From the IMG/VR virus record IMGVR_UViG_3300043399_000788, positions 1 through 64,000 of that record: a stretch of 64,000 nt of DNA; one strand, 5' to 3'. The first letter of the stretch is position 1; each line of letters opens with the position of its first letter. This document shows positions 12,384 to 64,000 of this stretch, one piece after another. Source of the DNA: a virus. The notes beneath the pieces were generated by a model. The model ran no database searches. It was given only the letters and a program-made list of their open reading frames with translations, and was not told the DNA's origin. The position numbers and the translations under genes are program-made.

Positions 12384-12398
12384 TCTCTAATATAGCGT

Positions 12399-12406
12399 TA
12401 TTTATT
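12399..12406 (-). promoter_or_regulatory. Late promoter motif for the second radical-SAM gene
   Basis: AATAAATA on the minus strand, 15 bases before the TTG start at 12383 and overlapping the stop codon of the upstream radical-SAM gene. It would allow separate late expression of the distal copy. Confidence 0.45.
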
Positions 12407-38800: not shown

Positions 38801-41800
38801 GGTAGTTCTAGAGCAAGTTCACGTTTGGAAACTACAATTGATAATAAGACAACTTACTTTGATGCTAGAGCAACTTCTTTTAATGATATTAGAAAGCAAA
38901 GTGGAGCTGTTTGGTTATATCAAATGCTATCAACATCAAACTCAAGCGCACAAAATCCAGGTCAGTTTATTTCTGGTCAACGTTTGATTAACTCATTTAT
39001 CGATAACCTAGATGAGTATGGCGCCAGTATTGCTATTAACAAAACAACAATTTATGTTGGCGCACCTGGTGACGACACACGTATTGCTAACGATAGTTCA
39101 TTATCAAATGCCGGTGCAGTATTCTCTTTTGAAAATAGTAGCAAACAAAAAATTTGGAAAACAATTAGAAGAGAAGAAGGCAAAGTTGATATTAACTTAA
39201 TCAACAGAGTATTCTTGTACAACAAAGAAACAAGTGCAATTGTTGCAGATCTTGAATTTATTGATCCTGTAAAAGGAAAAATAAGTGGTCTAGCCGCACA
39301 AGAAATTACATATCAAACACCGTATGATCCGGCAGTATATAATAATACTTCTGCTGGCAGAGTATGGGGTAAAGAACACATTGGTCAAGTTTGGTGGGAT
39401 ATTAGTCAAACAAGATGGTTAGATTATGAGCAAGGAAATGTTGACACAAGAGGTGTTAACTGGAATACCGCTTTCCCTGGATCAACTGTTATTTGCTACG
39501 AGTGGATCGAAAACGATTTACCTCCAACTCAATTTGTAGATGAGAAAGATCCTACAGCATTTGCAAGATCAAATACTTTTAATATTATTGCTAATATTGA
39601 TAGCAATACAGGTGTAGTAACCAACAAATATTATTACTGGGTTGCAGGAAAAAGAACAATTCCTCAAATTAATAATCGCAGATATAGTACTGTTGATTTA
39701 GAAAATCTAATTGCAAACCCACGTTCAACTGGTATACCATTTATTACATTCATTGCAAGAAATGCAGTTGCATTGTACAACTGTTCAAATCTATTGCAAG
39801 ACAAAAATGTAATTTTAAATATTGATTACGATTATAAACTAAACGAGAATTCAATCCACACTGAGTTCCAACTACTTTCAGAAAATGATCCAGCAAGTCA
39901 TCCAAATGAAAAGCTTGTACAAAAGATGATTGACAGTTTGGCTGGTACAGATGTACTAGGAAATCTAGTACCTGATGTTAAGTTAACAATTGGTGAGAAA
40001 TACGGTATTGAATATCGCCCTCGTCAAACAATGTTTAGAAATCGTAAGGAAGCATTAAAATCTGCTGTAAGTTATATTAACAGAATATTGTCTGAAATAC
40101 CAGCAAGAGACAAAAAAGACGTTTCTAACTTATTAGCTTACGAATTAATTCCTAATGTAAATCAAAATGCATACGATGATGTTGTAAATGATCGTGTTGA
40201 ACTTGGTTATATTAACATTAATCTACTACCTGCTAACTATCGAATTCTAGTTAGAAGTGATGCAGAAGTTAGCAACAGATGGGCAATATATCGCAAGCAA
40301 AATAATATTTGGATTCTTGATAGAGTTCAAACTTTTGATAACAGGCGTTACATTGATACAATTGATTGGATTAAACCAGGCGAAGTAGATCCAATTGTAA
40401 CAAATTATACTATTAATTTTAACTATGAGTTACTAAGCTTAACTCCAATCGAAGGTGATACTGTTAAAGTTAAGGATTCAGGTGATGGAAGATATGCTGT
40501 ATTAAAGTTCACTAATCAAAATGGTTATGAAATTATTAAAAAAGAAGCAGCAACTTACAAGATTCTAGATGCAATATGGAATGAATCTACATACGTTCAA
40601 GGATTTGACAGAGAAACATTTGATGTACAAATATTTGACGATTGGCCAACACTTGAAATACAGAAAATATTAAGAGCTATCTATGATGATATTTTTGTAT
40701 CCGAAGATCAAGTGCAAAAGAACAAATGGTTCCTCTTAGTTATAAAGCATTTGTTAGCAGAACAAAAATATGTTGATTGGGTATTTAAAACTAGCTTCAT
40801 CAAAGTTGAACACAGAGATCAACAAGCTATTAGTCAAATCCCAAGCTTGCAAAAAGATAGACAGGATAACTTACGCAAATACATTGAAGAAGTTAAACCA
40901 TATCATACAAAGATCAGAGAATTTATAAACAGCCATGAAGGCACAGATGTTTATGAATCTGCAACTACTGACTTTGACGTTCCTGCTTACTTTAATGAAA
41001 CTAACGGAACATACCGTAGTCCAACTGGATTAGATGAAATAGATGACATTATTTTTGATCGTCCAGAGTACGCAGCATGGCTTAACAATCATACACTAGA
41101 AATAGAATCTGTGTTAGTGTATAATACAGGATCAGGATATAGCAGTCCTCCAGCACTAACAGTAGTTGGGGGTTCTGGAACTGGTGCAAAACTTGAAGCA
41201 GTTATCGTAAACGGACAAATTACTAGTGTATCAGTAATTAATTCAGGAACAGGTTTCATTACTACACCAACTATTGAAATTGGTAATTCAAGTGGTGACG
41301 GTGCTATTTTAATTCCTGTTATGACTAACCAAAAAGTTCGTAGCATTAAAGATACAGTTAAATTTGATCGCATTCCAAACAATGGAGGATTTTTAGTACA
41401 GTTCTTAGATAGCTTTGGTAATCCAGTTGATATCCGCAATCAACGTAAATCACGTATCATTGGAGAACAAGGCGTAATTGACGAGTTACTAGATGCGCTA
41501 ACAGGGTTTAATTGGATAAAGGAAAATAGTGGATCAGTTAACTGGCCAGTTGAAAATGCTAGTAACTATAGAATTTTCTCAGATGATTCAGGAAGAATTC
41601 AAGTACAATATAAAAAGACACAAGGGGGATGGACAGCATCATTCCTCCAAGCATATCTAAGATCTCTTGGATATGCTGTAGGCATAGATGAATTAGACAT
41701 CAGTGGAACAACTGTTGTAGTTGACGGCAACATGAGTTTGTATGCCCCAACTGTTATGGAATGGCAACCAAATACACGTTATGATACAGGGGATATTGTG

Positions 41801-48943: not shown

Positions 48944-51900
48944 GCAGCGAATTAAGACTACGTAGAGGTACAGGAACTCAGCACAACAGCTTTACAGGTG
49001 CTGAAGCAGAAGTAACCGTAAACACTACAAACAAGAGCGTCCATGTGCATGATGGAACAACGTCAGGAGGTTTTGAGTTAGCCCGTGTTGACTTGAACAA
49101 CGTTGATAATAGCGTTTTTGCAGCAAAAGCAGCAGCAGCTGGTATAAGCGGCGGTGCAGGTGGATCTGCTGCAATTAGTGCTGCTACTAAAGCAAGTCCA
49201 GTTGTAGTTACAACTAATATAGCACATGGTTTTATTGATGGACAACAAGTTTCTATCACAGACGTTGGTGGCATGACACAACTAAATGGTAAAACTTATT
49301 ATGTTGACGTTTTAACTTCAACAACATTTGCGCTTTATACAGATGTTTCTCTTACTACCCCAGTTAACGGAACTGCTTATACAACATATACAAGTGGTGG
49401 TACCGCCGTAGGTGCAGACTTTGCTGGTGCCCCAATCAGCGGAAGCTATATTACAGTTAGTGCAGAGGCAGGTTTACCAAATGAGCGCAGATTACAAGCA
49501 GGTACAGGTTTGTCTATTACCGATGGCGGCGCCGGCGGTGCAGTCAGTGTTGCTGCTAACTTAGCTGCAACTGCCCCAAGCAACTTAGGTAGTGCAAACG
49601 CTGGTGTAAGCAACTTAATTGCAAGAGCAGATCACGTTCACGCTATGCCCACTGCAACTGACGTAGGTGCTGTTCCAACTTCACGACAAGTTCTTGCTGG
49701 CACAGGGTTGAGCGGCGGTGGCGCTCTAACTTCAAACGTAACATTAAGCTTAAATGCAAATCTTCATATGCTTACTGATGTAACTATTAACGGTACACCA
49801 TTAAACGGCGACGTTTTGATGTATAATAGTGCAACTAGCCAGTTTGAAAATTCTAGCACTTTTGCTAAAAATACAATACTTTTAAACAATTCAAATGTTG
49901 CTGTTAACACAATTAACAAGCTTAACTTTATTGGCACAGGTATAACTGCTTCTGTTAACGGGGTTGATAGTAGTAGAATTGATATTGCTATTGCAACTTC
50001 AAACACTACAGAAGTTCAAAATATTGTTGGAAACATGGTTTCAAGCAATACTGAAAACGGTATTGCTGTAACTTATGATGCAGTAGGTGGAAAGATTAAC
50101 TTCGACGTTAATGACCCAGTAATCACATTAAGTGGTGACGTTACTGGTACAGCAACAATGACTGATTTAGGAAACGTAACTATTAGCACAACAATTGCTG
50201 CAAATAGTGTTGCATTAGGAAACGATACAACAGGTAACTATGTTGCTACAATTACAGCAGGTAATGGTATTGCTATAACTGGAGCAGGGGTTGAAAGTGC
50301 ATCTGTAAAAGTTGAAGTTAATACAGCAGAACCAAATTTCCTAGAAGAATTACAAGACATTGTTGGTACTATGGTTTCAGGTAACAGCGAAAATGGTATC
50401 GCAGTTGTATATGATGATACACTTGGTAAGCTAAACTTCCAAGTTGGTAATCCTACTATTACATTGAGTGGTGCTGTTACTGGTGCTGCAACAATTACTA
50501 ACTTAGCCAACGCAACAATTAATACATCTATCGCAGTTGACGCAGTGGCTTTGGGAACTAACACAACAGGTAACTACATTGCTACTATTTCAGGTTCAAA
50601 CGGTATTAGTGTAACTGGTAGCGGTGTTGAAAGTGCTGCCGTTACTATTGGATTAAACACTACTAATCCAGACTTTGTTGAATCTATTCAAGATATTATA
50701 GGTAGTATGGTTGAAAGCAATACTGAAAACGGCATTGCTGTTGTATATGATGACAACCTTGGTAAACTAAACTTCGACGTTAATGATCCAGTAATTACTG
50801 TTTCTGGAGCAGTTAACGGCAGTGCTACAATGACTAATCTTGGTAACACCACAATTACTGTAACACAATCTGCAGACAGCGTAACACTTGGCACACATAC
50901 TGTAGGTAACTATGTTGCAAACATCGTTGCCGGGGCTGGTATTACAGTAACAAACGGTTCTGGTGAAGGACTAACTGCTAATATTTCTGTTAATACTACC
51001 AACGTAGACTTTATTGAAGCAATTCAAGACATTGTTGGTAGTATGGTTGAAACTAATACTGAAAACGGTATTGCTGTGACATATGATGATGCAACAGGTA
51101 AGCTAAACTTTGATGTTGCTGATCCAGTAGTAACATTAAGCGGCGACGTTACTGGTAGTGCTACAATGACTAACTTAGGCAATATTACTATCAGCACTAC
51201 TATTGCAGCAAATAGTGTAGCATTGGGAACAGATACAACAGGCAACTATGTTGCTACAATTACTGGTGCAAATGGTATTACTGTAACAGGTTCAGGTGTT
51301 GAAAGTGCTGCAATTTCACTAGGATTAGATAGAACTAACACTGATTTTAGAAATATTATACAAGATATTACTGCAAATATATTCACATCAGCAAACGGTT
51401 TAACAATTGTTTATAACGATACAAATAACACACTAAGCATTGATCCAAATGATCCAGTAATCACTTTAGCCGGCGCAGTCACTGGCAGTGCTACAATGAC
51501 TAACTTGGGTAATACAACTATTACAGTTGCCCAAGCAGCAGACAGTGTAACCCTTGGTACACACACTACAGGTAATTACATTGCTACAATTACTGGTACA
51601 AATGGTATTACTGTAACAGGTAGTGGTGTTGAAAGTGCAGCGGCCAGTATTTCTATCAATACTGCAAATGCAGATTTTATTGAAGCAATTCAAGACATTG
51701 TAGGCGGTATGGTTGATACTAACACAGAAGCAGGTGTTGCTGTTGTATATGATGATGTAACAGGCAAGCTTAACTTCGACGTTAATGACCCAGTAATCAC
51801 ATTAAGTGGTGACGTTACTGGTAGTGCTACAATGGCTAATTTGGGTAACGTAACGATTACTACTACAATCGCTGCAAATAGCGTTGCACTTGGAGCAGAT

Positions 51901-53808
51901 ACTACTGGTAACTATGTAGCAACTATTACTGGTGCAAATGGTATTACTGTAACTGGTAGTGGTGTTGAAAGTGCTGCTATTGCATTGTCGCTTGATAAAA
52001 CCAATACTGAGTTTAGAAATACCATTCTAGACGTAGCTGCAACTATGTTTGCTTCTGGTAACGGATTAAACATTGTTTACACTGATGCTACTAATACATT
52101 AAGTATCGATCCAAACGATCCAACAATTACATTAAGTGGTGATGTTACTGGTAGTGCTACAATTACTAACCTTGGTAACGTTACAATTGCTGCTACTATT
52201 GCCCCAAATAGTGTTGAATTGGGCATAGACACAGTAGGCAACTACGTTTCTTCTATAACAGGTGCAAACGGTATCGTAGTAACTGGATCAGGTGTTGAAA
52301 GTGCTGCTATTGCATTGTCCCTCGACAAAACTAACGCTGAATTTAGAAATACAATTCAAGACGTTGCTGCACTAATGTTTAGTACAGGCAGTGGTTTAAC
52401 TGTTACTTACAATGATACTACAAACGCAATTACAATTGATCCAAATGATCCAGTAATTACATTGTCAGGTGATGTTGTAGGCAGTGCTACAATGACTAAC
52501 TTAGGTAACGTAACAATTAATACAACTATTGCTGCAAATAGCGTGGCATTGGGAACAGATACTACAGGTAACTACGTTGCTACAATTACAGGTGCTAATG
52601 GTATCGTAGTAACAGGTTCAGGTGTTGAGAATGCTGCTATTGCATTGACATTAGATAAAGCTAATACTGAATTTAGAAATACGATTCAAGACGTTGCTGC
52701 CTTGATGTTTAGTACTGGTAGCGGTTTAAATGTAACATATAACGATACTACAAACGCAATTACAATTGATCCAAATGATCCACTAATCACTGTTACTGGT
52801 TCTGTAATTGGTAGTGCTACGATGACTAATTTAGGCAACGTAACAATTACTGTTGCTCAAGCAAATGACAGCGTTACACTTGGAACACATACAGTTGGTA
52901 ACTACGTTGCAAACGTAACAGCAGGTAAGGCAATTACTGTAACAGGAGCAAACGTAGAAACTGCTGATATTACAGTTGCAGTTGATACTGGAAACGCAGA
53001 CTTTGTTGAAGATATTCAAGACATTGTTGGTGCAATGGTCGGTGCTGGTAGTATTAAAAACGGTATCTCAGTAGTATACGATGATGCTACGGCTAAATTG
53101 AACTTTAACGTTGAAGATCCAATCATCACATTAACTGGTGGCGTAACTGGATCTGCACAAATGATCGATTTAGGATCAGTAACAATTACAACTACTGTAG
53201 CTGATAATAGTCACAATCATACAATTGCTAACATAACTGGATTGCAAGCTGAACTTGATTCTAAGCTAGGTGGTGCAGGCGGCACTGTTACTGGAACAAT
53301 TAATACTCAATCAATCGTTCCAGTAACAAACGGTGCATATTCTATAGGTACATCTGCATTGAAATATACTACTGTTTGGGCAGCTACATTTAACGGTACT
53401 GCTGTACAAGCGCAATACGCCGACTTGGCAGAACGTTATCATGCTGATGCTAAGTATCCTATAGGAACAGTTGTTAAGCTAGGTGGAAGTAAGGAAATTA
53501 CAGCAACTAACACAGCAAATGACACACAAGTAATTGGTGTAATTTCTGAAAATCCAGCTTACTTAATGAATGATGGTGCCGGTGATCCAAACGAATGGTT
53601 GCCAGTTGCTATGACAGGTCGTGTAAGAGTTAAGATTGTTGGTCCAGTAACTAAAGGTCAACGTATTGTAAGCTCTAGCGAACCAGGTGTAGCAATGGCA
53701 GTTAATGACAGTGAAATTACTTCATTTACTACTGTAATTGGAAGAGCATTGCGTTCAGATACTGATCCAAATATTAAGTTAGTTGAATGCATCATAGGTA
53801 AACTTTAA
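48940..53808 (+). CDS. Repetitive tail fibre protein 2 with C-terminal chaperone/peptidase-G2-like domain
   Basis: 1622 residues. An N-terminal SELRLRRGTGTQHNSFTGAE segment is typical of marine phage fibre and tail proteins. The centre carries nine units of 110-112 residues (NYVATITGANGITVTGSGVE, IQDIVGSMVETNTENGIAV, ITLSGDVTGSATMTNLGNVT), related to those of fibre 1. The last ~130 residues (YADLAERYHADAKYPIGTVV, MTGRVRVKIVGPVTKGQRIV) look like a peptidase-G2-type intramolecular chaperone region. The neighbouring fibre at 54514 shares this end. Coupled to both neighbours by overlapping start/stop codons. Confidence 0.82.
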   Translation: MSSELRLRRGTGTQHNSFTGAEAEVTVNTTNKSVHVHDGTTSGGFELARVDLNNVDNSVFAAKAAAAGISGGAGGSAAISAATKASPVVVTTNIAHGFIDGQQVSITDVGGMTQLNGKTYYVDVLTSTTFALYTDVSLTTPVNGTAYTTYTSGGTAVGADFAGAPISGSYITVSAEAGLPNERRLQAGTGLSITDGGAGGAVSVAANLAATAPSNLGSANAGVSNLIARADHVHAMPTATDVGAVPTSRQVLAGTGLSGGGALTSNVTLSLNANLHMLTDVTINGTPLNGDVLMYNSATSQFENSSTFAKNTILLNNSNVAVNTINKLNFIGTGITASVNGVDSSRIDIAIATSNTTEVQNIVGNMVSSNTENGIAVTYDAVGGKINFDVNDPVITLSGDVTGTATMTDLGNVTISTTIAANSVALGNDTTGNYVATITAGNGIAITGAGVESASVKVEVNTAEPNFLEELQDIVGTMVSGNSENGIAVVYDDTLGKLNFQVGNPTITLSGAVTGAATITNLANATINTSIAVDAVALGTNTTGNYIATISGSNGISVTGSGVESAAVTIGLNTTNPDFVESIQDIIGSMVESNTENGIAVVYDDNLGKLNFDVNDPVITVSGAVNGSATMTNLGNTTITVTQSADSVTLGTHTVGNYVANIVAGAGITVTNGSGEGLTANISVNTTNVDFIEAIQDIVGSMVETNTENGIAVTYDDATGKLNFDVADPVVTLSGDVTGSATMTNLGNITISTTIAANSVALGTDTTGNYVATITGANGITVTGSGVESAAISLGLDRTNTDFRNIIQDITANIFTSANGLTIVYNDTNNTLSIDPNDPVITLAGAVTGSATMTNLGNTTITVAQAADSVTLGTHTTGNYIATITGTNGITVTGSGVESAAASISINTANADFIEAIQDIVGGMVDTNTEAGVAVVYDDVTGKLNFDVNDPVITLSGDVTGSATMANLGNVTITTTIAANSVALGADTTGNYVATITGANGITVTGSGVESAAIALSLDKTNTEFRNTILDVAATMFASGNGLNIVYTDATNTLSIDPNDPTITLSGDVTGSATITNLGNVTIAATIAPNSVELGIDTVGNYVSSITGANGIVVTGSGVESAAIALSLDKTNAEFRNTIQDVAALMFSTGSGLTVTYNDTTNAITIDPNDPVITLSGDVVGSATMTNLGNVTINTTIAANSVALGTDTTGNYVATITGANGIVVTGSGVENAAIALTLDKANTEFRNTIQDVAALMFSTGSGLNVTYNDTTNAITIDPNDPLITVTGSVIGSATMTNLGNVTITVAQANDSVTLGTHTVGNYVANVTAGKAITVTGANVETADITVAVDTGNADFVEDIQDIVGAMVGAGSIKNGISVVYDDATAKLNFNVEDPIITLTGGVTGSAQMIDLGSVTITTTVADNSHNHTIANITGLQAELDSKLGGAGGTVTGTINTQSIVPVTNGAYSIGTSALKYTTVWAATFNGTAVQAQYADLAERYHADAKYPIGTVVKLGGSKEITATNTANDTQVIGVISENPAYLMNDGAGDPNEWLPVAMTGRVRVKIVGPVTKGQRIVSSSEPGVAMAVNDSEITSFTTVIGRALRSDTDPNIKLVECIIGKL
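50233..53226 (+). repeat. Nine tandem 336/330-bp coding repeats
   Basis: The G-N-Y codons recur at 50233, 50569, 50905, 51241, 51571, 51907, 52237, 52567 and 52897. Intervals are 336, 336, 336, 330, 336, 330, 330 and 330 bases, so two unit lengths of 112 and 110 codons exist. Confidence 0.9.
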
Positions 53809-54452
53809 TGGAAGTAAAAAAGAAAGACAGTAATTTGACAAAGCCAGATGAAAGCGGAAATGTTAGAGTCGAAGGTCACATAAAGATCTTCGACCCTGCT
53901 ACAAAAGAAGTGTTTGTAGATAAGAGAAACGCTATTCACTATGAAAATATGAGCGAAGCTCTTGCTTACAGTATTGCAAATAAAGGTGTTGGATTTATTC
54001 ATGAAATGCACTTTGGGAATGGCGGAACAAGTGTTGATACAACTGGTATCATTACTTACCTTCCACCAAATACTACTGGAGCAAACGCAGACTTGTATAA
54101 CCCAACCTACTATAAAGTGGTAGATGATAACAGTTCTTTAAATGCTGACCCAGCAAGAAATAAAATTGAAATTAAACACACTCCTGGATTGATATATACT
54201 GATGTTTTTGTTACTTGCTTACTTGACTACGGTGAGCCAGCTGGACAACAAGCATTTGATAACAGTATTAGTTTAGATGATGCGTTCGTATTCGATGAAC
54301 TTGGATTACGAGCTTGGGGCGGCGAAGAAGGAACAGGAAAGCTACTAACACACGTAATTTTCCATCCAATTCAAAAAAGTTTGAATAGACTTATTCAAAT
54401 AGATTACACAGTTAGAATACAAACTTTAACTAACCTTGGATCTATCGCATAA
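53808..54452 (+). CDS. Conserved virion-associated protein, fibre region
   Basis: 214 residues, beta-rich and acidic. MSEALAYSIANKGVGFIHEM, FGNGGTSVDTTGIITYLPPN and DELGLRAWGGEEGTGKLLTH are ordered segments that I associate with a conserved structural protein near fibres of marine T4-like phages. The start overlaps the fibre-2 stop by one base (TAATG). It may be a fibre connector or chaperone; no catalytic motif. Confidence 0.65.
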   Translation: MEVKKKDSNLTKPDESGNVRVEGHIKIFDPATKEVFVDKRNAIHYENMSEALAYSIANKGVGFIHEMHFGNGGTSVDTTGIITYLPPNTTGANADLYNPTYYKVVDDNSSLNADPARNKIEIKHTPGLIYTDVFVTCLLDYGEPAGQQAFDNSISLDDAFVFDELGLRAWGGEEGTGKLLTHVIFHPIQKSLNRLIQIDYTVRIQTLTNLGSIA

Positions 54453-54473
54453 ATATGAGTATATAATTTTCGT

Positions 54474-54481
54474 AATAAATA
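54474..54481 (+). promoter_or_regulatory. Late promoter motif upstream of fibre protein 3
   Basis: AATAAATA, 32 bases before the ATG at 54514, overlapping a 12-base perfect palindrome (AATAAGCTTATT, 54478-54489). An AGGAG ribosome binding site is present. Confidence 0.55.
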
Positions 54482-54513
54482 AGCTTATTAAGTAATTCAG
54501 GAGATTCAATTAC

Positions 54514-55998
54514 ATGGCCTACACTATTAACAAGACCAACGGTGCAGTTCTAGCAACTGTGGCTGACGGCACAATTGACAATTCAACAGACGTAACACTT
54601 ATTGGTAAAAACTATAGTGGTTATGGTGAAATTCTAAACGAGAATTTCGTAAAGTTGATGGAAAATTTTGCTTCCACTAGTTCCCCAGCAAGTCCACTAG
54701 CTGGTCAGCTTTGGTGGGATCTTTCAAACAACTCCTTAAAAGTTTACACTGGTTCTGGATTTAAAGTTATTTCTGGATCAACTGCAAGTGCTACACAGCC
54801 AAGCAACGCTACATTAGGTGATCTATGGTTTGATACTGTTAATAGTCAGTTGCGTGTATATAACGGCACAAGCTGGACACTTATTGGTCCAAGCTTTACT
54901 GCTGGAACAGGTGTATCTGGTGCAGTTATTACTACTGTGTTAGATAATACTGGTGCAAGCCACGTTGTTGTGCAATTCTTCGTAAACGAAGCTATTGTTG
55001 CAATTATGTCAAAAGATTCAACATTTACTCCTCAAACGTCAATTCCTGGGTTCTCTACTATTAGTCCTGGTATTCAAGTTTCTAGCGCCGTTGTTGGTGC
55101 CGGATTCACTGGAACAGCGTCAAATGCAGACTTGTTAGATAACCTAAACAGCACACAGTTTATGCGCTCAGACGCAAACACTACTACAACTGGTACACTA
55201 AGAGTACAAAACGACGCAGGTTTGTATGTTGGATCTGATAGCGATCTAAACATCAACGTAGCTGGTTCAGACGTAGTTGTTTATAACACACAGTCAAACG
55301 GTGACATTTTCTTCCGCGTTAACAGAAGTACAGGTGGCCAAACAACTGCACTAACAATTGATGGTGCAACAGGTTATGTTTACGCAACTACACCAAATGC
55401 CGGTGATAACTCTACTCGTTTAGCAACTACTGCTTATGTTGATGGTATTTCGACTGAACCTGGTTCAGGATTCTTAAAAGCAGACGGGTCAACTCCTCTT
55501 GCTGGTAATTTAATTCCAGATGTGCATAATACTCGTACTTTAGGTAGCCCAGCATTGCGTTATGCAGAAGTATATGCTACTAACCTTATTGGTAAAGCTG
55601 TCGAAGCACAATACGCCGACTTGGCAGAACGTTTTGAAGCAGACAGTGCTTATGAACCAGGCACAGTTGTTGAATTAGGTGGCGATAAAGAAATTACAGC
55701 CGTTGCTGATGAACTAAGCGATAAAGTATTTGGTGTTATTTCTACAAACCCAGGTTTCTTAATGAATAACAAAGTTGGTGATGATTCAACTCATCCAGCA
55801 ATTGCTATGACAGGACGTGTTCCGGTTAAGGTAACTGGTAAAGTTTCTCGCGGTGACAGATTAGTTTCTGCCGGTAATGGGCTTGCTCGCGCAGCAAAAC
55901 CAGGTGAAGCAACTAGCTTTAACGTAATTGGAAGAGCACTAGAAAATAAAACTACTACTGGCATAAGTACTGTTAATGCTGTTGTTAAGATACAATAA
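54514..55998 (+). CDS. Tail fibre protein 3 with the shared C-terminal module
   Basis: 494 residues. The N-terminus MAYTINKTNGAVLATVADGT, NFVKLMENFASTSSPASPLAGQLWWD-like core and a later DLWFDTVNSQLRVYNGTSWT segment are typical of marine T4-like fibre proteins that bind a shaft. The last ~130 residues (YADLAERFEADSAYEPGTVV, MTGRVPVKVTGKVSRGDRLV) match the end of fibre 2, including 25 identical bases (53413-53437 and 55609-55633). This end probably acts as a folding or autocleaving chaperone. Confidence 0.8.
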   Translation: MAYTINKTNGAVLATVADGTIDNSTDVTLIGKNYSGYGEILNENFVKLMENFASTSSPASPLAGQLWWDLSNNSLKVYTGSGFKVISGSTASATQPSNATLGDLWFDTVNSQLRVYNGTSWTLIGPSFTAGTGVSGAVITTVLDNTGASHVVVQFFVNEAIVAIMSKDSTFTPQTSIPGFSTISPGIQVSSAVVGAGFTGTASNADLLDNLNSTQFMRSDANTTTTGTLRVQNDAGLYVGSDSDLNINVAGSDVVVYNTQSNGDIFFRVNRSTGGQTTALTIDGATGYVYATTPNAGDNSTRLATTAYVDGISTEPGSGFLKADGSTPLAGNLIPDVHNTRTLGSPALRYAEVYATNLIGKAVEAQYADLAERFEADSAYEPGTVVELGGDKEITAVADELSDKVFGVISTNPGFLMNNKVGDDSTHPAIAMTGRVPVKVTGKVSRGDRLVSAGNGLARAAKPGEATSFNVIGRALENKTTTGISTVNAVVKIQ

Positions 55999-56010
55999 AG
56001 GATTTAATAA

Positions 56011-56913
56011 ATGACTTATGCTAGTGGCGGTTTAATTCAAGCAAGTGACTATAATACCTGGGCAAACTCAGTTAATGGTGTATGGGGAGCAGGCTCCGGC
56101 GATTACGGATACGGACAAACATCTACACTAGCAACTGTTGCAGCGTCAAATACTGTCACTGCTGCTCAATGGGCAACACTAATTGCAAGATATGATTCTA
56201 TACGCAGACATCAAGTAAACGCTCCATCAGGAATAACACAGCCTCAAACAGGAAATACCATTACGTACTTAAGTGCTATCAACACTGTAAACACTAACAT
56301 ATGGAATGGCAGATACACTTGGGCTGCAAATGGAAGTGCGACGTATGCAAGATCAAATGCTAATGCTGCAACTTGGATAACTAGTGCAACAAGAGAAGCT
56401 ACTATTAGTTTTGCTAGTGCAAACGCAATGAGGTATTTCTTCAATGCAGGTGGTTATATACAATTTTCTGGAGTATCTTCGGCTGTTTCTGGCAACACAA
56501 AATCGGATGATTGGGAAACACTACTAAACAACTGCGGTTATGTTAGAATTTTGCCTTGGACCAGTGATAGGCAAACTGCATCCGGTACTCCAACAATATA
56601 TAACCAAGGACTTGGTTTTTGGAGTTTAAATACCGGTAACCAAATTATTTTGCGTCAATATAGTCCAAACACACTCGGTGGTTATAACTTAAACTATGCA
56701 ACTTTCCAAGCTAGATTAAACGCTACTGCAGGTTCTTCAACTGTAATGACAGTAAGTATGGTTCTTACAGATGCTTCTGGTGACGTACTAAACGATACTG
56801 TTGGTTCAGGTGTTTATTTAGAAGTTTGGGTAGTTCCTCCAGCTACAACATGGATTAGTAACACTTGGGGAACCCCAACGCTTAACGTTAACGCAGTTAA
56901 CACTCAATCTTAA
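56011..56913 (+). CDS. Fibre-tip or adhesin-like structural protein
   Basis: 300 residues, rich in N, T, A, S, W and Y. It starts MTYASGGLIQASDYNTWANS and has aromatic-rich beta segments (WATLIARYDSIRRHQVNAPSG) and TFQARLNATAGSSTVMTVSM. There is no catalytic motif. The composition resembles distal fibre or receptor-binding proteins. It ends the long structural run, with AAGGA before its ATG. An adhesin role is inferred. Confidence 0.65.
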   Translation: MTYASGGLIQASDYNTWANSVNGVWGAGSGDYGYGQTSTLATVAASNTVTAAQWATLIARYDSIRRHQVNAPSGITQPQTGNTITYLSAINTVNTNIWNGRYTWAANGSATYARSNANAATWITSATREATISFASANAMRYFFNAGGYIQFSGVSSAVSGNTKSDDWETLLNNCGYVRILPWTSDRQTASGTPTIYNQGLGFWSLNTGNQIILRQYSPNTLGGYNLNYATFQARLNATAGSSTVMTVSMVLTDASGDVLNDTVGSGVYLEVWVVPPATTWISNTWGTPTLNVNAVNTQS

Positions 56914-56926
56914 TTTATTATTGATT

Positions 56927-56962
56927 TATCCATGCTCTGAAATTATAATTAGAGCATGGATA
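56927..56962 (+). promoter_or_regulatory. 12-bp hairpin that hides the next start codon
   Basis: TATCCATGCTCT (56927-56938) pairs perfectly with AGAGCATGGATA (56951-56962) over an AT-rich 12-base loop. The ATG of the following gene (56956-56958) lies in the 3' arm, and no T-run follows. It could block initiation or partly terminate late transcripts. Confidence 0.65.
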
Positions 56963-57276
56963 TTCATGAGTTAGCTAAAAAATCATACGATCGAGCATTA
57001 GCTCAAAAAAATCTTGAAGAAAAACAACTTAGTCGAATGACAATAGCACATGCTAACGGCATTTGGATATGTAATGCTGAGTTAATTTGCTTATTACATT
57101 CGTATAAAAATTTAAAGGAAATAATATTGCTCGATAGCAACAAGATTCCACGCAAAGTTGACCCTGAGAAACTTCTTGAATTAGTACAAAAGAGGCACCA
57201 AGAAATTTTAAATGATTGGTTAAATGAGTATACTGCATTAACTAAAATAAGAACTGTCAATCATGTATTTGAATGA
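56956..57276 (+). CDS. Hypothetical protein at the head of the enzyme island
   Basis: 106 residues, helical and charged (ELAKKSYDRALAQKNLEEKQ, IPRKVDPEKLLELVQKRHQE). No domain recognised. The ATG sits in a hairpin and has only a weak AGAG in front of it, so translation may be regulated. It overlaps the next gene by 14 bases. Confidence 0.7.
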   Translation: MDIHELAKKSYDRALAQKNLEEKQLSRMTIAHANGIWICNAELICLLHSYKNLKEIILLDSNKIPRKVDPEKLLELVQKRHQEILNDWLNEYTALTKIRTVNHVFE

Positions 57277-58099
57277 TAAAATTTGCATAATATCGGCAAC
57301 TAATTCTATCACTGATGACAACAAAACTATTGATTATATTCAATTAGCTAGTGTAGCCGCAGATCGTGCTAGATATTATTTAGATGTTCCAACAGTATTA
57401 ATAACATCCGATACTACAATTGATAAGAAAAAAACTAATTTTGCCGAAGTAATTTTTACAGAACCTACAAAAGTAACAAAGCGTAATGTTATTGCAGGGG
57501 AAAGTATAATACAATACCAATGGTTAAATGATTTTAGAATTGATGCATACGAATTAACCAAAGGTATGGCTAAACGATTTATTATGATTGATGCAGACTA
57601 TATGATTGCATCTGACCAATTACTTTCTTGGTTAAGAAATGATTATCATTTTTTAATATTAGATGATGTTTACGATATTACAGGATCAGGAATGTACAGA
57701 GAAAAAATACTTCCTAGTAACGATATTCCTCAACGATGGGCAACTGTAATTTCTTGGAATCAAAGTGAAGAATCAAAAATAATATTTGATACTTCTCGTA
57801 TGGTACGTGATAATTATGACTTTTATTCCCTTATTTTTGGTTTTCCTAAAACTCCATTTAGAAATGATTTAGCGTTTAGCGTTGCATGTCATTTGCACAA
57901 TATTCCTAAAACACAAACCAAACTTTTCAATTTAGCCCCAAGCGGGTTTTTATATCAAACTAAAGATAAAAGCGGATGGATTGTTGATTTTAATGATAAG
58001 TTAATACGTTGGAACACAGACGTACACATTTTGAATAAGCAATACGCTATTGATCCTTCAATGCTTGATTTATTGAGATTAGACAATGTCAAAGCGTAA
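57263..58099 (+). CDS. Glycosyltransferase-like protein (GT-A fold, DAD motif)
   Basis: 278 residues. The N-terminal half alternates strands and helices (KICIISATNSITDD, VPTVLITSDTT), and FIMIDADYMIASDQL places Asp110-Ala-Asp112 at the usual DxD metal/nucleotide-sugar site of GT-A enzymes. The rest is less typical. A nucleotide-sugar transferase is likely; donor and acceptor are unknown. It overlaps the next gene by 14 bases. Confidence 0.65.
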   Translation: MYLNDKICIISATNSITDDNKTIDYIQLASVAADRARYYLDVPTVLITSDTTIDKKKTNFAEVIFTEPTKVTKRNVIAGESIIQYQWLNDFRIDAYELTKGMAKRFIMIDADYMIASDQLLSWLRNDYHFLILDDVYDITGSGMYREKILPSNDIPQRWATVISWNQSEESKIIFDTSRMVRDNYDFYSLIFGFPKTPFRNDLAFSVACHLHNIPKTQTKLFNLAPSGFLYQTKDKSGWIVDFNDKLIRWNTDVHILNKQYAIDPSMLDLLRLDNVKA

Positions 58100-58943
58100 T
58101 TTTAAAGATGAGCGTGGGTTTTTAACTTTTGCGGTAGGAAAAGAATACGTTAAACTTGCATATGCACAAGCATTAAGTATCAAGCTTACACAAAAAAATA
58201 ATAATGTTGCTATTATTGTAGACACTGATGCTGTACAAGAACTTGATAAGTTTGATAAAATATTTGACGAAGTAATAGTAATAAATCATACTCAAAACGG
58301 TTGGGATATGAGTCAATATTGGCAAGCGTTTAGGTTAACTCCATGGCGAGAAACTTTCTTAGTAGAAGCTGATATTATTTTCCCAACATCTATTGATCAT
58401 TGGTGGGATATTGTTAGAGAACGTGAAGTTTGCTTACCTAATGCAGTTAAAGACTTTAGAGAAGATACAATAACAACTCGTCGTTATAGAAAGTTGTTTG
58501 ATGAAAATTTACTGCCAGACGTATATGCAGGGTTCGTTTATTTCCGTTATTCGCAATTTGCTATGGAATTTTTTGCATTAATTAGAATGATAATGGAAAA
58601 TTGGGAATGGGTCTCAAAAGAACACATAATTAAAAATGAAGATACTAGAATTAGAATTGATGAAGTATTTTCATTAGCTACAAGAATAATGGGAAAGCAA
58701 TATTTAACGTTACCTTTCTCAGTCCCAACGTTCGTACACGGTAAAGGTGGTGCTTGGGGATTACGTGAACAAACACCATGGTACGAGCAATTATATGTTG
58801 AATGGAATAAGACTGTGCCAATAATTGGTCATTACCATCAACGATTGCCTTTACATTATCATCATAAGGAATGGATATCAGATGACATCATCAAACGATA
58901 CGAACGAATCAGAAATGAACGAAACAACAATGAATCTACTTAA
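58086..58943 (+). CDS. Glycosyltransferase-like protein (GT-A fold, EAD motif)
   Basis: 285 residues. FLTFAVGKEYVKLAYAQALS and the NVAIIVDTDAV strand resemble GT8-type and related transferases. WRETFLVEADIIFP places Glu94-Ala-Asp96 at the DxD position, an acidic variant. Conserved aromatic-rich segments follow (NGWDMSQYWQAFR, LPDVYAGFVYFRYSQF). It is adjacent to a second transferase and overlaps the next small gene. Sugar and acceptor unknown. Confidence 0.65.
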   Translation: MSKRNFKDERGFLTFAVGKEYVKLAYAQALSIKLTQKNNNVAIIVDTDAVQELDKFDKIFDEVIVINHTQNGWDMSQYWQAFRLTPWRETFLVEADIIFPTSIDHWWDIVREREVCLPNAVKDFREDTITTRRYRKLFDENLLPDVYAGFVYFRYSQFAMEFFALIRMIMENWEWVSKEHIIKNEDTRIRIDEVFSLATRIMGKQYLTLPFSVPTFVHGKGGAWGLREQTPWYEQLYVEWNKTVPIIGHYHQRLPLHYHHKEWISDDIIKRYERIRNERNNNEST

Positions 58944-59169
58944 GGCTATTCAAGAATATAAAGAACCTGAAGTAACACCAATTGTAATTAAATTAATATA
59001 TGATCCTGAAACAACATTAGTAACAGGATTCACTTTTGAAGATACTGATAAACCTTGGGTAGAAATTACAAGGGAACAGTATGATTCAGGTCTTCCATTT
59101 AAGAAGCTAAAAGTTGTTAACGGTAAAATTGAAGAAATAACTCGCGAAACCAAAAAAAAAAACTTTTAG
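58882..59169 (+). CDS. Small protein with apparent -1 frameshift (zero-frame product)
   Basis: 95 residues in frame zero, ending TRETKKKNF after an 11-A run. A -1 shift at the run continues for 30 more codons to 59255 (LLVDGDKWHTSESNMLIMGN, then ERGWDERKNS), giving a product of about 124 residues that looks continuous. The start is uncertain: ATG 58882, 58915 or 58930; 58882 has a GGA six bases upstream. No function recognised. Confidence 0.6.
   Translation: MTSSNDTNESEMNETTMNLLKAIQEYKEPEVTPIVIKLIYDPETTLVTGFTFEDTDKPWVEITREQYDSGLPFKKLKVVNGKIEEITRETKKKNF
59157..59163 (+). other. Slippery heptamer A AAA AAC, candidate -1 frameshift site
   Basis: The run of eleven A (59152-59162) followed by C places A AAA AAC in the zero frame, a known -1 slippery sequence. 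The zero-frame stop TAG is two codons downstream. The -1 frame is open to 59255 and overlaps the next gene by 20 bases. Confidence 0.6.
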
Positions 59170-59235
59170 TTGATGGCGATAAGTGGCATACATCAGAATC
59201 AAATATGTTAATAATGGGTAACGAACGGGGTTGGG

Positions 59236-60147
59236 ATGAACGAAAGAATAGTTGATATCGCAGATTTAGATTGTATCTATCTAAGTTACGACGAGCCACG
59301 AAAAGAAGAATTTTGGGCAAAAATATCAGCTATGGTGCCATGGGCAAAGCGTGTTGATGGTATCAAAGGTAGCGATGCTGCACATAAAGCAGCAGCCGCA
59401 GCTAGTGATACTGAACGCTTTGTACTAATTGATGGCGACAATCTTCCTAATCCAAAATTCTTTGATCAGCAACTTATTTTAAATTTATCAAATGAAAACT
59501 ACGTATTTCGTTGGAAAGCACTTAACAACATTAACGGGCTTACATATGGTAATGGTGGAATAAGTTGCTGGACAAAGCAATTTGTAAACAATATGAAAAC
59601 TCATGAAGCGAGCTTAGGCGAAGATCATACCCAAGTGGAGTTTTGTTGGAATACAGGTTACATTGCCATGCATGATGTTTGGTCAACGACGTACCCAAAT
59701 CAATCTCCATATCATGCCTGGCGTGCTGGTTTTCGTGAAGGGGTTAAGATGTGTCTTGATCGCGGAGTAAAACCATCACTAATGGATTTTCAAACACGAG
59801 TAAGTCTTGGTAACATGCGTAACTTAAGCATATGGCATAACATTGGTGCAGATGCAGAGTACGGCGACTGGGCAATACTTGGGGCTCGTATGGGAACTTA
59901 TATGACTATGCTTGATAATTGGGATTATAGATTAGTACATGATTTTGATGAACTTAGGAAAGTCTATGATGATACCTTAATTCATCATGAATTTGTTGAA
60001 GCTAGAGATATGGATTTCTTTGGCGAACAATTAAAAGTTAAGCTTGGATTAGATATAATATACGAAGATTCTGTACACTATAGCGTATTTTTTAAGAAGT
60101 ATGCTTATGTACGTAAAAACAAAGGTATTATGGAGATTGATAGTTGA
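59236..60147 (+). CDS. Glycosyltransferase-like protein (GT-A fold, DGD motif)
   Basis: 303 residues. RFVLIDGDNLPNPKFFDQQL places Asp66-Gly-Asp68 at the expected DxD site, after a DGIKGSDAAHKAAAA helix. EDHTQVEFCWNTGYIAMHDV and the aromatic-rich core agree with a sugar transferase. It is of a family I have seen near fibre genes in marine phages. Substrate not known. Its ATG lies in the -1 extension of the upstream gene; its stop overlaps the next TTG start. Confidence 0.68.
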   Translation: MNERIVDIADLDCIYLSYDEPRKEEFWAKISAMVPWAKRVDGIKGSDAAHKAAAAASDTERFVLIDGDNLPNPKFFDQQLILNLSNENYVFRWKALNNINGLTYGNGGISCWTKQFVNNMKTHEASLGEDHTQVEFCWNTGYIAMHDVWSTTYPNQSPYHAWRAGFREGVKMCLDRGVKPSLMDFQTRVSLGNMRNLSIWHNIGADAEYGDWAILGARMGTYMTMLDNWDYRLVHDFDELRKVYDDTLIHHEFVEARDMDFFGEQLKVKLGLDIIYEDSVHYSVFFKKYAYVRKNKGIMEIDS

Positions 60148-60695
60148 AATTATATGTTGATGGATGCAGCTTTGTTGCAGCATCAGGTATATCGAGCGAT
60201 TACAAAATGGCAAAGTTGCTTAACGCAGATAAAGACATGAGTCTAGAAGGAAAAAGCAACTTACAAATAGTTCACGATGTTTATAAAAACATTGATAATT
60301 ATAGCCACTTCTTCATATCGTTTACGTTTAGTAATAGATTTGTCATTTTTGAAAATGGTAAGCGTTGCTTTCATATACTGCCAAATTTAGATACAAGGCG
60401 TTTTCCAGATAAAAATGATTTTGAGAAATATAAAGCATTCCACGATTTTTATTATCGACATATGAATTTAGATTTTAATAGTGCTCTAACTGATTTTTAC
60501 GTTGATAGTATTATTTCAATGCTTAAGTTTTATAATAAAACGTATTTGATATATACAGTTGAACCAAGGAAAACAAAATTTCCAGATGAATTAGTTCAAT
60601 TAGATTTTTTAAAATATTCCCAAATATATGATGGTCATTTTGATGAACAGGGAATGCAAGACTGGGCAAAAGATGTTAAACGGAGATTATTTTGA
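60144..60695 (+). CDS. SGNH/GDSL-like hydrolase (putative)
   Basis: 183 residues from a TTG at 60144, with GGAG eight bases upstream and a TTGA overlap with the preceding stop. YVDGCSFVAASGISS carries a GCS nucleophile pattern as in small GDSL/SGNH esterases. DGHFDEQGMQDWA near the end gives the expected Asp-x-His pair. Members of this superfamily remove or transfer acyl groups, often on sugars. The middle Gly and Asn blocks are less clear, so confidence is moderate. Confidence 0.6.
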   Translation: MKLYVDGCSFVAASGISSDYKMAKLLNADKDMSLEGKSNLQIVHDVYKNIDNYSHFFISFTFSNRFVIFENGKRCFHILPNLDTRRFPDKNDFEKYKAFHDFYYRHMNLDFNSALTDFYVDSIISMLKFYNKTYLIYTVEPRKTKFPDELVQLDFLKYSQIYDGHFDEQGMQDWAKDVKRRLF

Positions 60696-62062
60696 GTGAC
60701 TTTTTAAATGCCGCGCAAAACATGAAAGAAGAACTTGGCGAAGCACTGTGTCTTGCTAAGTGGCAACAGGTTAGTCTTCATCTAACTAATGGTTTAACTA
60801 ATAGTTGTTATCATCCTCCGTTGCATGAAATTGACGAAAGCTTATTGAAGGATAATCCTTCAGCATTACATAATACACCTTACAAAAAGGAACGTAGAAA
60901 AGAAATGCTTGAAGGCAAGAAGTGCAATGAATGCAGTTATTGTTGGAATATTGAAGCAACGGGTAATTTAAGTGATAGACATTATCGCAGTGGAGAACCT
61001 TGGGCAGCTATACATTTAAATAGAATACGCCAACAAAGCTGGGATAAAGATGAGGTACCAAGTTATGTTGAAGTCAATTTTAGCAATGTGTGTAATCTTG
61101 CTTGTAGTTACTGTTCTCCTCAGTTTAGCTCTACCTGGGGAGCGCAAGCGGAGAGGTTTGGAGCTTATCCCACTTCCACGCCACACAATGATCCAGAACA
61201 TTTTAAAGGAAGAAGAAAAGTTATTCCTAACAGGGAATACAATCCTTACCTAGAAGCATTTTGGAAATGGTGGCCTGCGCTATATCCACAGTTAAAGCAT
61301 TTCCGTATGACTGGCGGTGAACCAATACTTGATAAGAACACTTATAAAGTATTTGATTATGTTTTAAAGAATTCAAAACCAGACCTACATTTAAATGTAA
61401 CAAGTAATTTTAGTACTGATCAAGGTTTGTTTGATTACTATCTAAGCAAAGTTAAATTACTATGTGAAGGTGAAAAAATTGAACACTTTATGCAGTTTGT
61501 AAGCGTTGATACTTTTGGTAAGCAAGCAGAATACATTAGACCAGGATTAATTTTCAAACGTTTACAAGATAACGTTGAACGTTTCTTAACAGAAATACCA
61601 GGTCGAAATAGCGTAACGTTTATTATCACTATGAACAACTTAGTTGTACCAGGCATACAAGATTTGCTTAACTGGATTTTAGAACTACGTTCTAAACATA
61701 GTCACACATATCAGCGTGTATGGTTTGATACACCACTGCTTAGGAATCCAAGTTGGCAAAGTTTACAAGTATTACCGGAAGCTTATGCTTGGAAACTCAA
61801 ACAAGTAAGAAATTGGATGCAGGAAAAGATTCTTGTAGAGGAACAGAATCGTTATGATGGATTTAAGGACTACGAGATTCAACGAATGAATCGCATTATT
61901 GCCATGATGAAACAACATAGCGATAATAAAAATTTAAAAGCAGATTTTTATCGTTTCTTTAATGAACACGATCGTCGACATAACCTAAAATTTACAGAAG
62001 TATTTCCAGACATGCTAACTTTTTGGGATGAATGTAAGTATTGGGCAGACAATGCATTGTAA
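60692..62062 (+). CDS. Radical SAM protein with extra cysteine cluster (twitch-type)
   Basis: 456 residues from TTG 60692 (GGAG at 60682-60685); ATG 60722 is an alternative. Cys134, Cys138 and Cys141 (CNLACSYC) form the CxxxCxxC radical SAM site. A further CNECSYC at Cys78/81/84, plus Cys39, may bind a second iron-sulphur cluster. MTGGEPILDKN is the usual glycine-rich SAM-binding block. This matches the twitch-domain radical SAM proteins found in marine phages. Reaction unknown. Confidence 0.82.
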   Translation: MSDFLNAAQNMKEELGEALCLAKWQQVSLHLTNGLTNSCYHPPLHEIDESLLKDNPSALHNTPYKKERRKEMLEGKKCNECSYCWNIEATGNLSDRHYRSGEPWAAIHLNRIRQQSWDKDEVPSYVEVNFSNVCNLACSYCSPQFSSTWGAQAERFGAYPTSTPHNDPEHFKGRRKVIPNREYNPYLEAFWKWWPALYPQLKHFRMTGGEPILDKNTYKVFDYVLKNSKPDLHLNVTSNFSTDQGLFDYYLSKVKLLCEGEKIEHFMQFVSVDTFGKQAEYIRPGLIFKRLQDNVERFLTEIPGRNSVTFIITMNNLVVPGIQDLLNWILELRSKHSHTYQRVWFDTPLLRNPSWQSLQVLPEAYAWKLKQVRNWMQEKILVEEQNRYDGFKDYEIQRMNRIIAMMKQHSDNKNLKADFYRFFNEHDRRHNLKFTEVFPDMLTFWDECKYWADNAL

Positions 62063-63176
62063 ATTTTTAACAAATGGGGTAAGAATAAATGAAGATGGAT
62101 CTGTTGTTCCTTGTTGCGAATTTACTGGCAACATAGGTATTAATATTTCTAAAGATTTTAATTTTGAAGGATATTTTTCTTCTCCACAAGTTACTGATTT
62201 AAAAGAAAAGTTATCTAATAATATATGGCCAAGCCAGTGTTCTCAGTGTGAGAACAAAGAAAAGTTAAAGCATTTTAGTGCTCGTCAACGTGCTAATATT
62301 GAATTACCTAAAGGGTTAACAGTTGACATTGTAATAGGAAGAGAATGCAATAGTGACTGCGTAATGTGTTACGCTGGGCAGAGCAGTAAAATATTTTCTA
62401 GAATTAAAAAGACAAAACCAACATTTGATGTGCCAAGTGAAGATCAATATTGGATCACTGAAAACAGTGACATCGACTACAATTGGGTTGAAAACGAAAA
62501 ATTTTGGAATCAACTTAAAGAAAATTTTGAAAACATTAGCAAAGTAAAATTCATTGGCGGAGAACCGTTATTAAGCAAAAAACTTTGGCGTTGGTTACAA
62601 GATGAAAATATTATTTCTAAAAAGCATAATAAACGTTTAGAAATTGTGACTAATGGCAGCATTTTTAATGCAGACAAAAATCAATTATTAACAGGGTGGG
62701 AAAAAACTAGTTTAACAGTTAGTATTGATTCTACAGAAAAAGAATATGAGTGGATTCGACAAGGATTACATTGGGAAGAAGTTAGTAATAATACAATCAA
62801 GTATAGTAACCTCGATAACGTTGTTGTTTCTGTTCACGCTACTATCAACTTATATAATGTTGCTACATTAGGAAATCTTGTTAGTTGGGCAAACGATAAT
62901 AATTTACTTTTTACATTTACCCCTGTAACATCTCCATCTTTATTATCAATTAAATATGCACCTATTAATATATTAAATCAAACATTAATAGAAATTGATA
63001 AGATTAAATCATTCAAAATACAAAATAGCATTCAATTAAAAGGTTTAAAAAATCTACTAAAAAATGCAATTGAGAATAATATTGAAAATGTTGAACTAAG
63101 AAAAAGTATAACTAATTATTTTAATAATCATAGACAACACTGCATGGATTGGGAAACACTAAAATGTATGACATAG
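62052..63176 (+). CDS. Radical SAM protein with N-terminal auxiliary cluster (SPASM/twitch-like)
   Basis: 374 residues from ATG 62052; ATG 62028 is possible. The N-terminus MHCKFLTNGVRINEDGSVVP ends in CCEF, and CSQC follows (Cys3, 21, 22, 63, 66). This is the auxiliary-cluster pattern usually found C-terminal in SPASM proteins, placed here before the radical SAM motif CNSDCVMC (Cys99/103/106). FIGGEPLLSKK is the SAM-binding block. The start overlaps the upstream gene by 11 bases. SPASM proteins often modify peptides, but that is only a lead here. Confidence 0.8.
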   Translation: MHCKFLTNGVRINEDGSVVPCCEFTGNIGINISKDFNFEGYFSSPQVTDLKEKLSNNIWPSQCSQCENKEKLKHFSARQRANIELPKGLTVDIVIGRECNSDCVMCYAGQSSKIFSRIKKTKPTFDVPSEDQYWITENSDIDYNWVENEKFWNQLKENFENISKVKFIGGEPLLSKKLWRWLQDENIISKKHNKRLEIVTNGSIFNADKNQLLTGWEKTSLTVSIDSTEKEYEWIRQGLHWEEVSNNTIKYSNLDNVVVSVHATINLYNVATLGNLVSWANDNNLLFTFTPVTSPSLLSIKYAPINILNQTLIEIDKIKSFKIQNSIQLKGLKNLLKNAIENNIENVELRKSITNYFNNHRQHCMDWETLKCMT

Positions 63177-64000
63177 TTTTAATTCATGTTCCTTATATGT
63201 TTAACACTAATCCGCCTCTTGCTGCACCATTGCTTAAAGCTTGTTTAGCAGAACATGACATTAATGCATATACTATTGACTTTAACATTGAGTTTATCAA
63301 ATCAAACGTTAGCACAAAGTCCATCATAGCTTGGCTGCAAAAACCAGATTTGTTCCCAAATAAAGACGAATATCTAACATACAAAAATTGGGTAGAAGAG
63401 TCAGTTAAGCGTGCTTTAGCTCTTAATCCAAAATGGATTGGAATATCTGTTTTTACAAAAGATAGTCAGTTAGCAGCAGAAGATTTTGCTTGTGCAATTA
63501 GAAAATTGTCACCAACAACTAAGATATTAGTTGGAGGGTTAGGTGCTAATGTTAATTTAGGGCAGTGGAATTTATCATGGTATCAACTTGCATTTGATTC
63601 AAACTTAGTTGATACTGTCATAATAGGTGAAGGTGAAAAAGCTATTGTTGATGTAATTAAAAACGATAAGCATGGCATAATTAAAGCACCGCAGTTAAAC
63701 GTAGCAGAACTTGATTCTGTTCCTATGCCAGATTTTAGTGATTACACACTAAGCAATTATTACTCAGATTTAGATAAAGACACAATTGCTATTCCAATTA
63801 CTGCCAGCAAAGGATGCATTCGTGATTGTACATTTTGCGATGTAGGTAAGCATTGGCCTAATTTTAATTCACGTAGCGGTAACAAAGTAGCATCTGAGAT
63901 AATCAGTTTTTACAAGGATTACGGTTTCAAATATTTCCGTTTTACTGACAGTTTGATTAATGGTAATGTTAAAGAGTTTAGAATAATGAATGCTAAACTA
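63164..64000 (+). CDS. B12-binding-type radical SAM protein (3' end beyond window)
   Basis: 279 codons are in the window, open to the right edge. An N-terminal Rossmann-like half (DIVLIHVPYMFNTNPPLAAP, ILVGGLGAN, VIIGEGEKAI) leads to a radical SAM core starting CIRDCTFC (Cys222, 226, 229). This is the B12-binding radical SAM layout, as in the tandem pair at 10.7-14.1 kb but more canonical. The start overlaps the upstream gene by 13 bases. No DxHxxG cobalamin motif is visible. Substrate unknown. Confidence 0.8.
   Translation, partial: MYDIVLIHVPYMFNTNPPLAAPLLKACLAEHDINAYTIDFNIEFIKSNVSTKSIIAWLQKPDLFPNKDEYLTYKNWVEESVKRALALNPKWIGISVFTKDSQLAAEDFACAIRKLSPTTKILVGGLGANVNLGQWNLSWYQLAFDSNLVDTVIIGEGEKAIVDVIKNDKHGIIKAPQLNVAELDSVPMPDFSDYTLSNYYSDLDKDTIAIPITASKGCIRDCTFCDVGKHWPNFNSRSGNKVASEIISFYKDYGFKYFRFTDSLINGNVKEFRIMNAKL

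Follow-up and report, generated by a model that had tools for sequence, protein, structure and literature searches.

The stretch of viral DNA considered here carries genes for sugar transferases and radical SAM proteins directly behind its fibre genes. This raises the question of whether these genes form one pathway and, if so, whether its product is a glycan or a peptide and whether it acts on the fibres or on the host surface. The source is an uncultivated viral record of 79,301 bases, and the window (the whole 64,000-nucleotide stretch that was analysed) corresponds to its bases 1-64000. The structural genes of the phage are T4-like, and its best matches among deposited phages are large myoviruses, for example Phosso, PA5oct and Atu_ph07, with identities of about 51-53%.

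The open reading frames on which the original prediction was built all exist and form one plus-strand chain, in which neighbours mostly overlap, by 4-47 nt. The predicted start at 56956 stands; the predicted end at 64000 does not, as the window edge cuts the chain, which continues to approximately 73.6 kb of the record. The gene order is g106, GTa, GTb, a small ORF, GTc, an SGNH-like gene, rS1, rS2 and rSB12, followed by h136, rS3, rS4, rS5, GTd, rS6, h387 and GTe, where GTd is a name of convenience for a protein without a family match. Beyond about 73.6 kb both strands are coded, up to a thymidylate synthase gene at the end of the record. Across related phages a family of ORFs of about 115 residues occupies 42 accessory positions, which does not imply kinship with the small ORF between GTb and GTc.

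Table 1. Features of the fibre block and of the island within the window, with the basis of each assignment.
Feature	Position	Strand	Basis or remark
Fibre block upstream of the island	48940..56913	+	genes at 48940 (Mtd_N domain), 53808, 54514 (tail-fibre match) and 56011
T4-type late promoter motifs (ATAAATA) ahead of the 54514 fibre gene	54449..54481	+	
Sigma70-like promoter, TTGATT-N17-TATAAT	56921..56955	+	-10 box ends 6 nt before ATG
g106, small first island gene, no function assigned	56956..57276	+	relatives in 54/80 loci
GTa, putative GT-A-type glycosyltransferase, fast-evolving	57263..58099	+	DAD motif and context
GTb, GT8-like glycosyltransferase, fast-evolving	58086..58943	+	glycogenin profile match, EAD motif
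Small ORF between GTb and GTc	58882..59169 (longest form from 58825)	+	ORF list
GTc, GT-A-like glycosyltransferase, highly conserved core enzyme	59236..60147	+	predicted fold, DGD motif
SGNH-like hydrolase, accessory insertion	60144..60695	+	class by motif only
rS1, N-twitch radical SAM enzyme, core	60692..62062	+	NF033640, 312 bits
rS2, divergent N-twitch radical SAM enzyme, accessory	62028..63176	+	NF033640, 199 bits
rSB12, B12-binding radical SAM enzyme, accessory	63149..64000 (to 64624 in the record)	+	Pfam/NCBIfam

A search of IMG/VR with rS1 gave at least 599 matching stretches, of which 80 loci were retained. GTc is present in all 80 loci, GTb in 79, GTa in 77, rS3 in 67, rS4 in 61, rS5 in 57 and rS6 in 51, counts that include many loci cut short where a contig stops. 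Of the 46 full-length loci, 33 have exactly the order GTa>GTb>GTc>rS1>rS3>rS4>rS5>rS6. The same block was recovered from uncultivated phages with an rS6 query and with a GTc profile; these searches share some contigs with the first, and the counts are not fully independent. All 48 long GTc loci have GTa and GTb, and 47 of them have rS1; in 48/48 the island follows fibre genes like those of the window. The core is GTa-GTb-GTc-rS1-rS3-rS4-rS5-rS6(-h387), located directly downstream of the fibre genes. A near relative is 83-84% identical in much of this core, and comparison with it gave dN/dS values of 0.05-0.09 for GTc, rS3, rS5, rS6 and h387, while for rS1 and rS4 the synonymous sites were saturated. 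Evolution is faster in GTa and GTb (49% and 61% identity to the near relative, against 79-85% for the other core proteins). The ordered operon is almost certainly a real unit. The idea of a coordinated enzyme set beside the fibre genes, conserved together in other phages, is thus strongly supported by the conserved order; the opposite outcome, named beforehand as grounds for rejecting the prediction, was not seen. As to its membership, GTa, GTb, GTc and rS1 belong to the core as predicted, while the SGNH-like, rS2 and B12 genes are rare in relatives.

Among 50,697 deposited phage records the only relatives are two Vibrio phages, K566 and K567, both weak. Like the island, they interleave N-twitch-family genes with GT8 genes, which K566 does independently with two GT8 genes. 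However, their identity to the island proteins is only about 23-26%, and no GTc homologue was found in these two or in any other of the deposited records.

The GT-A-type DxD/ExD motifs reported for three genes are all present: DAD at residue 110 of GTa, EAD at residue 94 of GTb and DGD at residue 66 of GTc. Their aspartates are invariant at D110 and D112 of GTa (57 sequences), at D96 of GTb, and at D66 and D68 of GTc. The AlphaFold model of GTc (pLDDT 84) finds GT-A enzymes as its top fold matches, with TM-scores of only about 0.3-0.46, and a GT-A-like fold is predicted; the matches include the PBCV-1 capsid glycosyltransferase. GTb resembles the GT8 enzyme glycogenin over residues 5-110 (profile E 4e-8), and a Pfam search found no match for it. 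GTa found no match in Pfam or PDB searches, and is a putative GT-A-type enzyme on the strength of its DxD motif and context.

The matches of the radical SAM proteins to Pfam and NCBIfam are solid, and the three in the window all contain the expected CX3CX2C motif. They had been taken for three kinds, with twitch, N-terminal SPASM-like and B12-type layouts; we find two. Every one of the six rS proteins scores above 170 bits, the curated cut-off for NF033640 (N_Twi_rSAM), with rS3, rS4, rS5 and rS6 scoring 310, 404, 333 and 282 bits in addition to the two listed in Table 1, so the "twitch" and "N-terminal SPASM-like" proteins are of the same kind. This family, of which the record holds six copies, has an N-terminal twitch followed by the radical SAM core. 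Seven cluster cysteines (four of the N-terminal auxiliary site and three of CX3CX2C) are invariant in every aligned orthologue: 63/63 for rS1, 54/54 for rS3, 49/49 for rS4, 44/44 for rS5 and 40/40 for rS6. No radical SAM cysteine is lost in these orthologues, a loss that had been named beforehand as grounds for rejecting the prediction. Each of rS1 and rS3-rS6 is predicted to have an AdoMet-cleaving cluster site and an auxiliary-cluster site.

To our knowledge the N_Twi_rSAM family includes no enzyme with a known reaction, and we found no characterised member of it and no paper on NF033640 in a search of the literature outside subscription journals. Several peptide maturases in NCBIfam are matched weakly by the radical SAM proteins. 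The twitch region of rS4 matches BtrN, also weakly (E 0.004). BtrN, a 2-deoxy-scyllo-inosamine dehydrogenase, is itself a twitch radical SAM enzyme, which makes chemistry on a sugar-like alcohol plausible. However, its twitch is C-terminal whereas that of the rS proteins is N-terminal.

The remaining genes of the island vary. The SGNH-like protein has the predicted GCS and DxH motifs, as VDGCSF and DGH, while the class itself found no backing in Pfam and PDB searches, which returned no SGNH match. Its gene occurs in 6 of the 80 loci and is missing from the near relative, as is the accessory rS2; rSB12 occurs in 4 of the 80, and the near relative keeps it at 65% identity. Judged by this distribution, the SGNH, rS2 and B12 genes are lineage-specific insertions. 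In a census of 135 representative accessory proteins of the phage loci, nucleotide-sugar enzymes rank next to radical SAM among the assigned families (GDP-mannose dehydratase, epimerase and RmlD, 7 each with overlapping matches). Cytidylyltransferase, DegT, acyltransferase and carbamoyltransferase families also occur, the last at 25 accessory positions. The most frequent families include no peptidase, exporter or recognised precursor, short precursors being only partly covered, and the core showed no flippase, no polymerase and no lipid-linked initiating transferase. The conserved h387 (L006:11080-12243), often the last core gene, has invariant LHxxFExxQG and LNxLCHExE motifs; it found no sequence match, and its predicted structure (pLDDT 77) no fold match. 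Of 40 related records, 8 (most of them long) encode A-type iron-sulfur carriers, a count with no control set from which we claim nothing.

Downstream of GTe, at 73515-77976 of the record, two DesII-like radical SAM genes flank a sulfotransferase gene and a DegT aminotransferase gene, possibly a deoxy- or aminosugar module. Their DesII (TIGR04426) scores of 343 and 269 bits are under the 450-bit cut-off, and we therefore call them DesII-like only. No relative of the DesII-like protein was found in viral contigs with the patterns used.

To learn when the island is expressed, we considered the promoter-like motifs around it. The sigma70-like layout ahead of g106 also occurs in the near relative. 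Sigma70-like sites are as common in the window as expected (44 found, 44 expected), so this match alone is not beyond chance and the promoter claim rests on position across relatives. Among 119 distinct regions upstream of g106, strong sigma70 matches (score >=10) number 52, of which 41 have a -10 box ending 5-7 nt before the start. In 45/119 regions a TATAAT box has its end 4-8 nt ahead of the start codon, compared with 0-6 cases at each internal gene. A GC-rich hairpin is found in 67/119 of these regions, compared with 2% of shuffles and 1-5% at internal genes. In about 40-60% of the distinct relatives no hairpin or strong promoter is recognisable. With the -10 box so placed, transcription would begin at the ATG, and a leaderless early transcript is thus possible.

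The fibre and structural genes, on the other hand, carry T4-type late promoters, AATAAATA. ATAAATA has 14 copies in the 79-kb record, of which 9 precede gene starts (0.26 expected) and none lies within the island. In none of the 80 loci do the 100 nt ahead of the first island gene contain a T4-type late promoter, and in related loci the density of ATAAATA is 0.018/kb inside the core as against 0.42/kb in the fibre region. In a 200-kb relative (G010), ATAAATA precedes structural genes, and gp46/Rad50 and a ClpA-like gene have the same promoter layout as the island. This shared layout, together with the lack of late promoters, leads us to read the island as an early-type unit, and we infer early expression. 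The link to the fibres, as far as these motifs tell, is one of position and not of co-expression. Separately, the consensus TATAAATA is depleted in the window (1 found, 9 expected), its lone copy lying just upstream of the 7321 gene; the late motif of this phage is mostly AATAAATA.

These results allow us to propose, tentatively, that the island is an early operon whose enzymes build a glycan with radical modifications, the host surface being a more likely site for it than the fibres. GTa, GTb and GTc would add sugars to an acceptor, and rS1, rS3, rS4, rS5 and rS6 would carry out separate steps (such as oxidation, epimerisation or deoxygenation) on those sugars, for which BtrN acting on its aminocyclitol would be the model. 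Lineage-specific genes would add further decorations. A host-surface glycan altered during infection could block competing phages or change receptor display.

The product is probably a glycan, which the nucleotide-sugar accessory genes, the interleaving with GT8 genes in two Vibrio phages and the cysteine-poor fibres favour. Peptide modification, the other half of the original alternative, gained no positive support, and a RiPP-like system, with amino-acid side chains of a phage or host protein as the radical SAM substrates, is in our view improbable. SPASM and twitch radical SAM enzymes are often peptide maturases and the weak NCBIfam matches to several maturases agree with this, but the five main fibre-block proteins have 0-1 cysteines, which argues against thioether crosslinks and disfavours sactipeptide-like chemistry, and the peptidase, exporter and precursor expected beside a maturase are those missing from the top accessory families. 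Early enzymes could also build a glycosylated base that protects the phage DNA. Some pathways of thymidine hypermodification include radical SAM enzymes, and the early-type expression (inferred), the glycosyltransferases and the thymidylate synthase gene at the record end would suit such a role. It is very unlikely, given that the ThyA-like protein matches true thymidylate synthases best, that no base hydroxymethylase was recognised in the record and that the accessory genes are typical of surface polysaccharide. That the island is a coincidental collection of unrelated host-derived genes in a variable region is scarcely credible. Host-recognition islands are hypervariable in related phages (PMC7029224) and the island is partly accessory, but its fixed order over many diverse contigs, the strong purifying selection and the shared promoter already contradict this.

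The target of the proposed glycan is less clear than its nature. Early-type rather than late fibre promoters make the host surface the most likely one, although we hold this with somewhat less than even confidence; early enzymes can persist and could act on late virion proteins, so the timing argument has moderate weight. Virion glycosylation, in which the enzymes would decorate the fibre or another virion protein in the manner of glycosyltransferases that act on viral capsids and on mycobacteriophage virions, we consider unlikely, though less so than the preceding alternatives. The invariable position of the island directly downstream of the fibre genes, the PBCV-1 enzyme among the GTc fold matches and the richness of the fibres in Ser/Thr all speak for it. 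What is more, GTa and the fibre protein next to it show weak co-divergence (partial r 0.26, p 0.015, n=21, four tests uncorrected). Against it, the island has no late promoters and starts with an early-type promoter of its own, and a terminator often insulates it. Of the two targets first suggested, the host surface therefore fits better, and the promoter evidence argues against the fibres.

Phage surface-glycan clusters and phages with many radical SAM genes have been reported (PMC7029224, PMC5332604, PMC7824862). The pelagimyophage host-recognition cluster and the glycosyltransferase clusters of T4-like and jumbo phages are fibre-adjacent, alteration of the host surface has been proposed for them, and radical SAM cassettes are mentioned in pelagimyophages (PMC7029224, PMC7824862). 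These clusters are described as hypervariable, whereas the present block of glycosyltransferase and radical SAM genes is conserved, ordered and has its own promoter. TARA_ERS488813_N000010, like the present phage T4-like, uncultivated and rich in radical SAM genes, has 12 of them, framed as iron-sulfur auxiliary genes; the part of that source consulted does not mention the present operon (PMC5332604). What distinguishes the island from NF033640 members elsewhere is the presence of five ordered paralogues in one operon with glycosyltransferases; no description of this operon or of any N_Twi_rSAM activity was found in literature outside subscription journals. As the N-twitch family is uncharacterised, an ordered, selected unit with glycosyltransferases offers a defined enzyme set with a testable substrate class. 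Should surface sugars be the substrates of the rS enzymes, phages would offer a wealth of new radical carbohydrate chemistry and of means to change receptors in the course of infection. The promoter results further indicate that position beside fibre genes is not the same as action on fibres, which affects the reading of many host-recognition islands.

In a tree of the radical SAM proteins, which has several long branches and in which the placement of rS2 and other details are unsure, rS1, rS3, rS4, rS5 and rS6 fall in separate old groups. A Bacteriovoracaceae chromosome (L092:6055-18051) carries members of all five phage groups beside rplU and obgE, and other Bdellovibrionota carry several. 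The separate groups and the one chromosome with all five argue for five distinct functions rather than copy-number amplification. No recognised glycosyltransferases adjoin the Bdellovibrionota set, so the radical SAM enzymes may not need them, and the bacterial neighbours of the family show no consistent partner. The idea that fibre-like proteins lie beside the set in predatory bacteria (from PMC10769870) was unsupported at the few loci checked. We regard as doubtful, on balance, the broadest reading, that many uncultivated T4-like phages re-coat the host surface early in infection with a novel type of glycan whose sugars pass through five consecutive AdoMet-radical reactions, with enzymes shared with predatory Bdellovibrionota.

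Several observations lie outside the island. N-twitch radical SAM genes are numerous in one Elusimicrobia metagenome bin, with as many as six consecutive copies, and are spread over about a dozen contigs (L097-L102, L104, L108, L113, L114, L116 and L159). On the minus strand of the window, at 10686-14096 and far from the island, two more paralogous B12-binding radical SAM genes lie near gp46/gp47-like genes. The protein encoded at 9181-10188, which by eye we take to be amidinotransferase-like, has no Pfam match and matches only a PHROG of unknown function; its relatives are found near some related islands. In the tail/baseplate region, at 29822-44173, a single reading frame spans 4783 residues.
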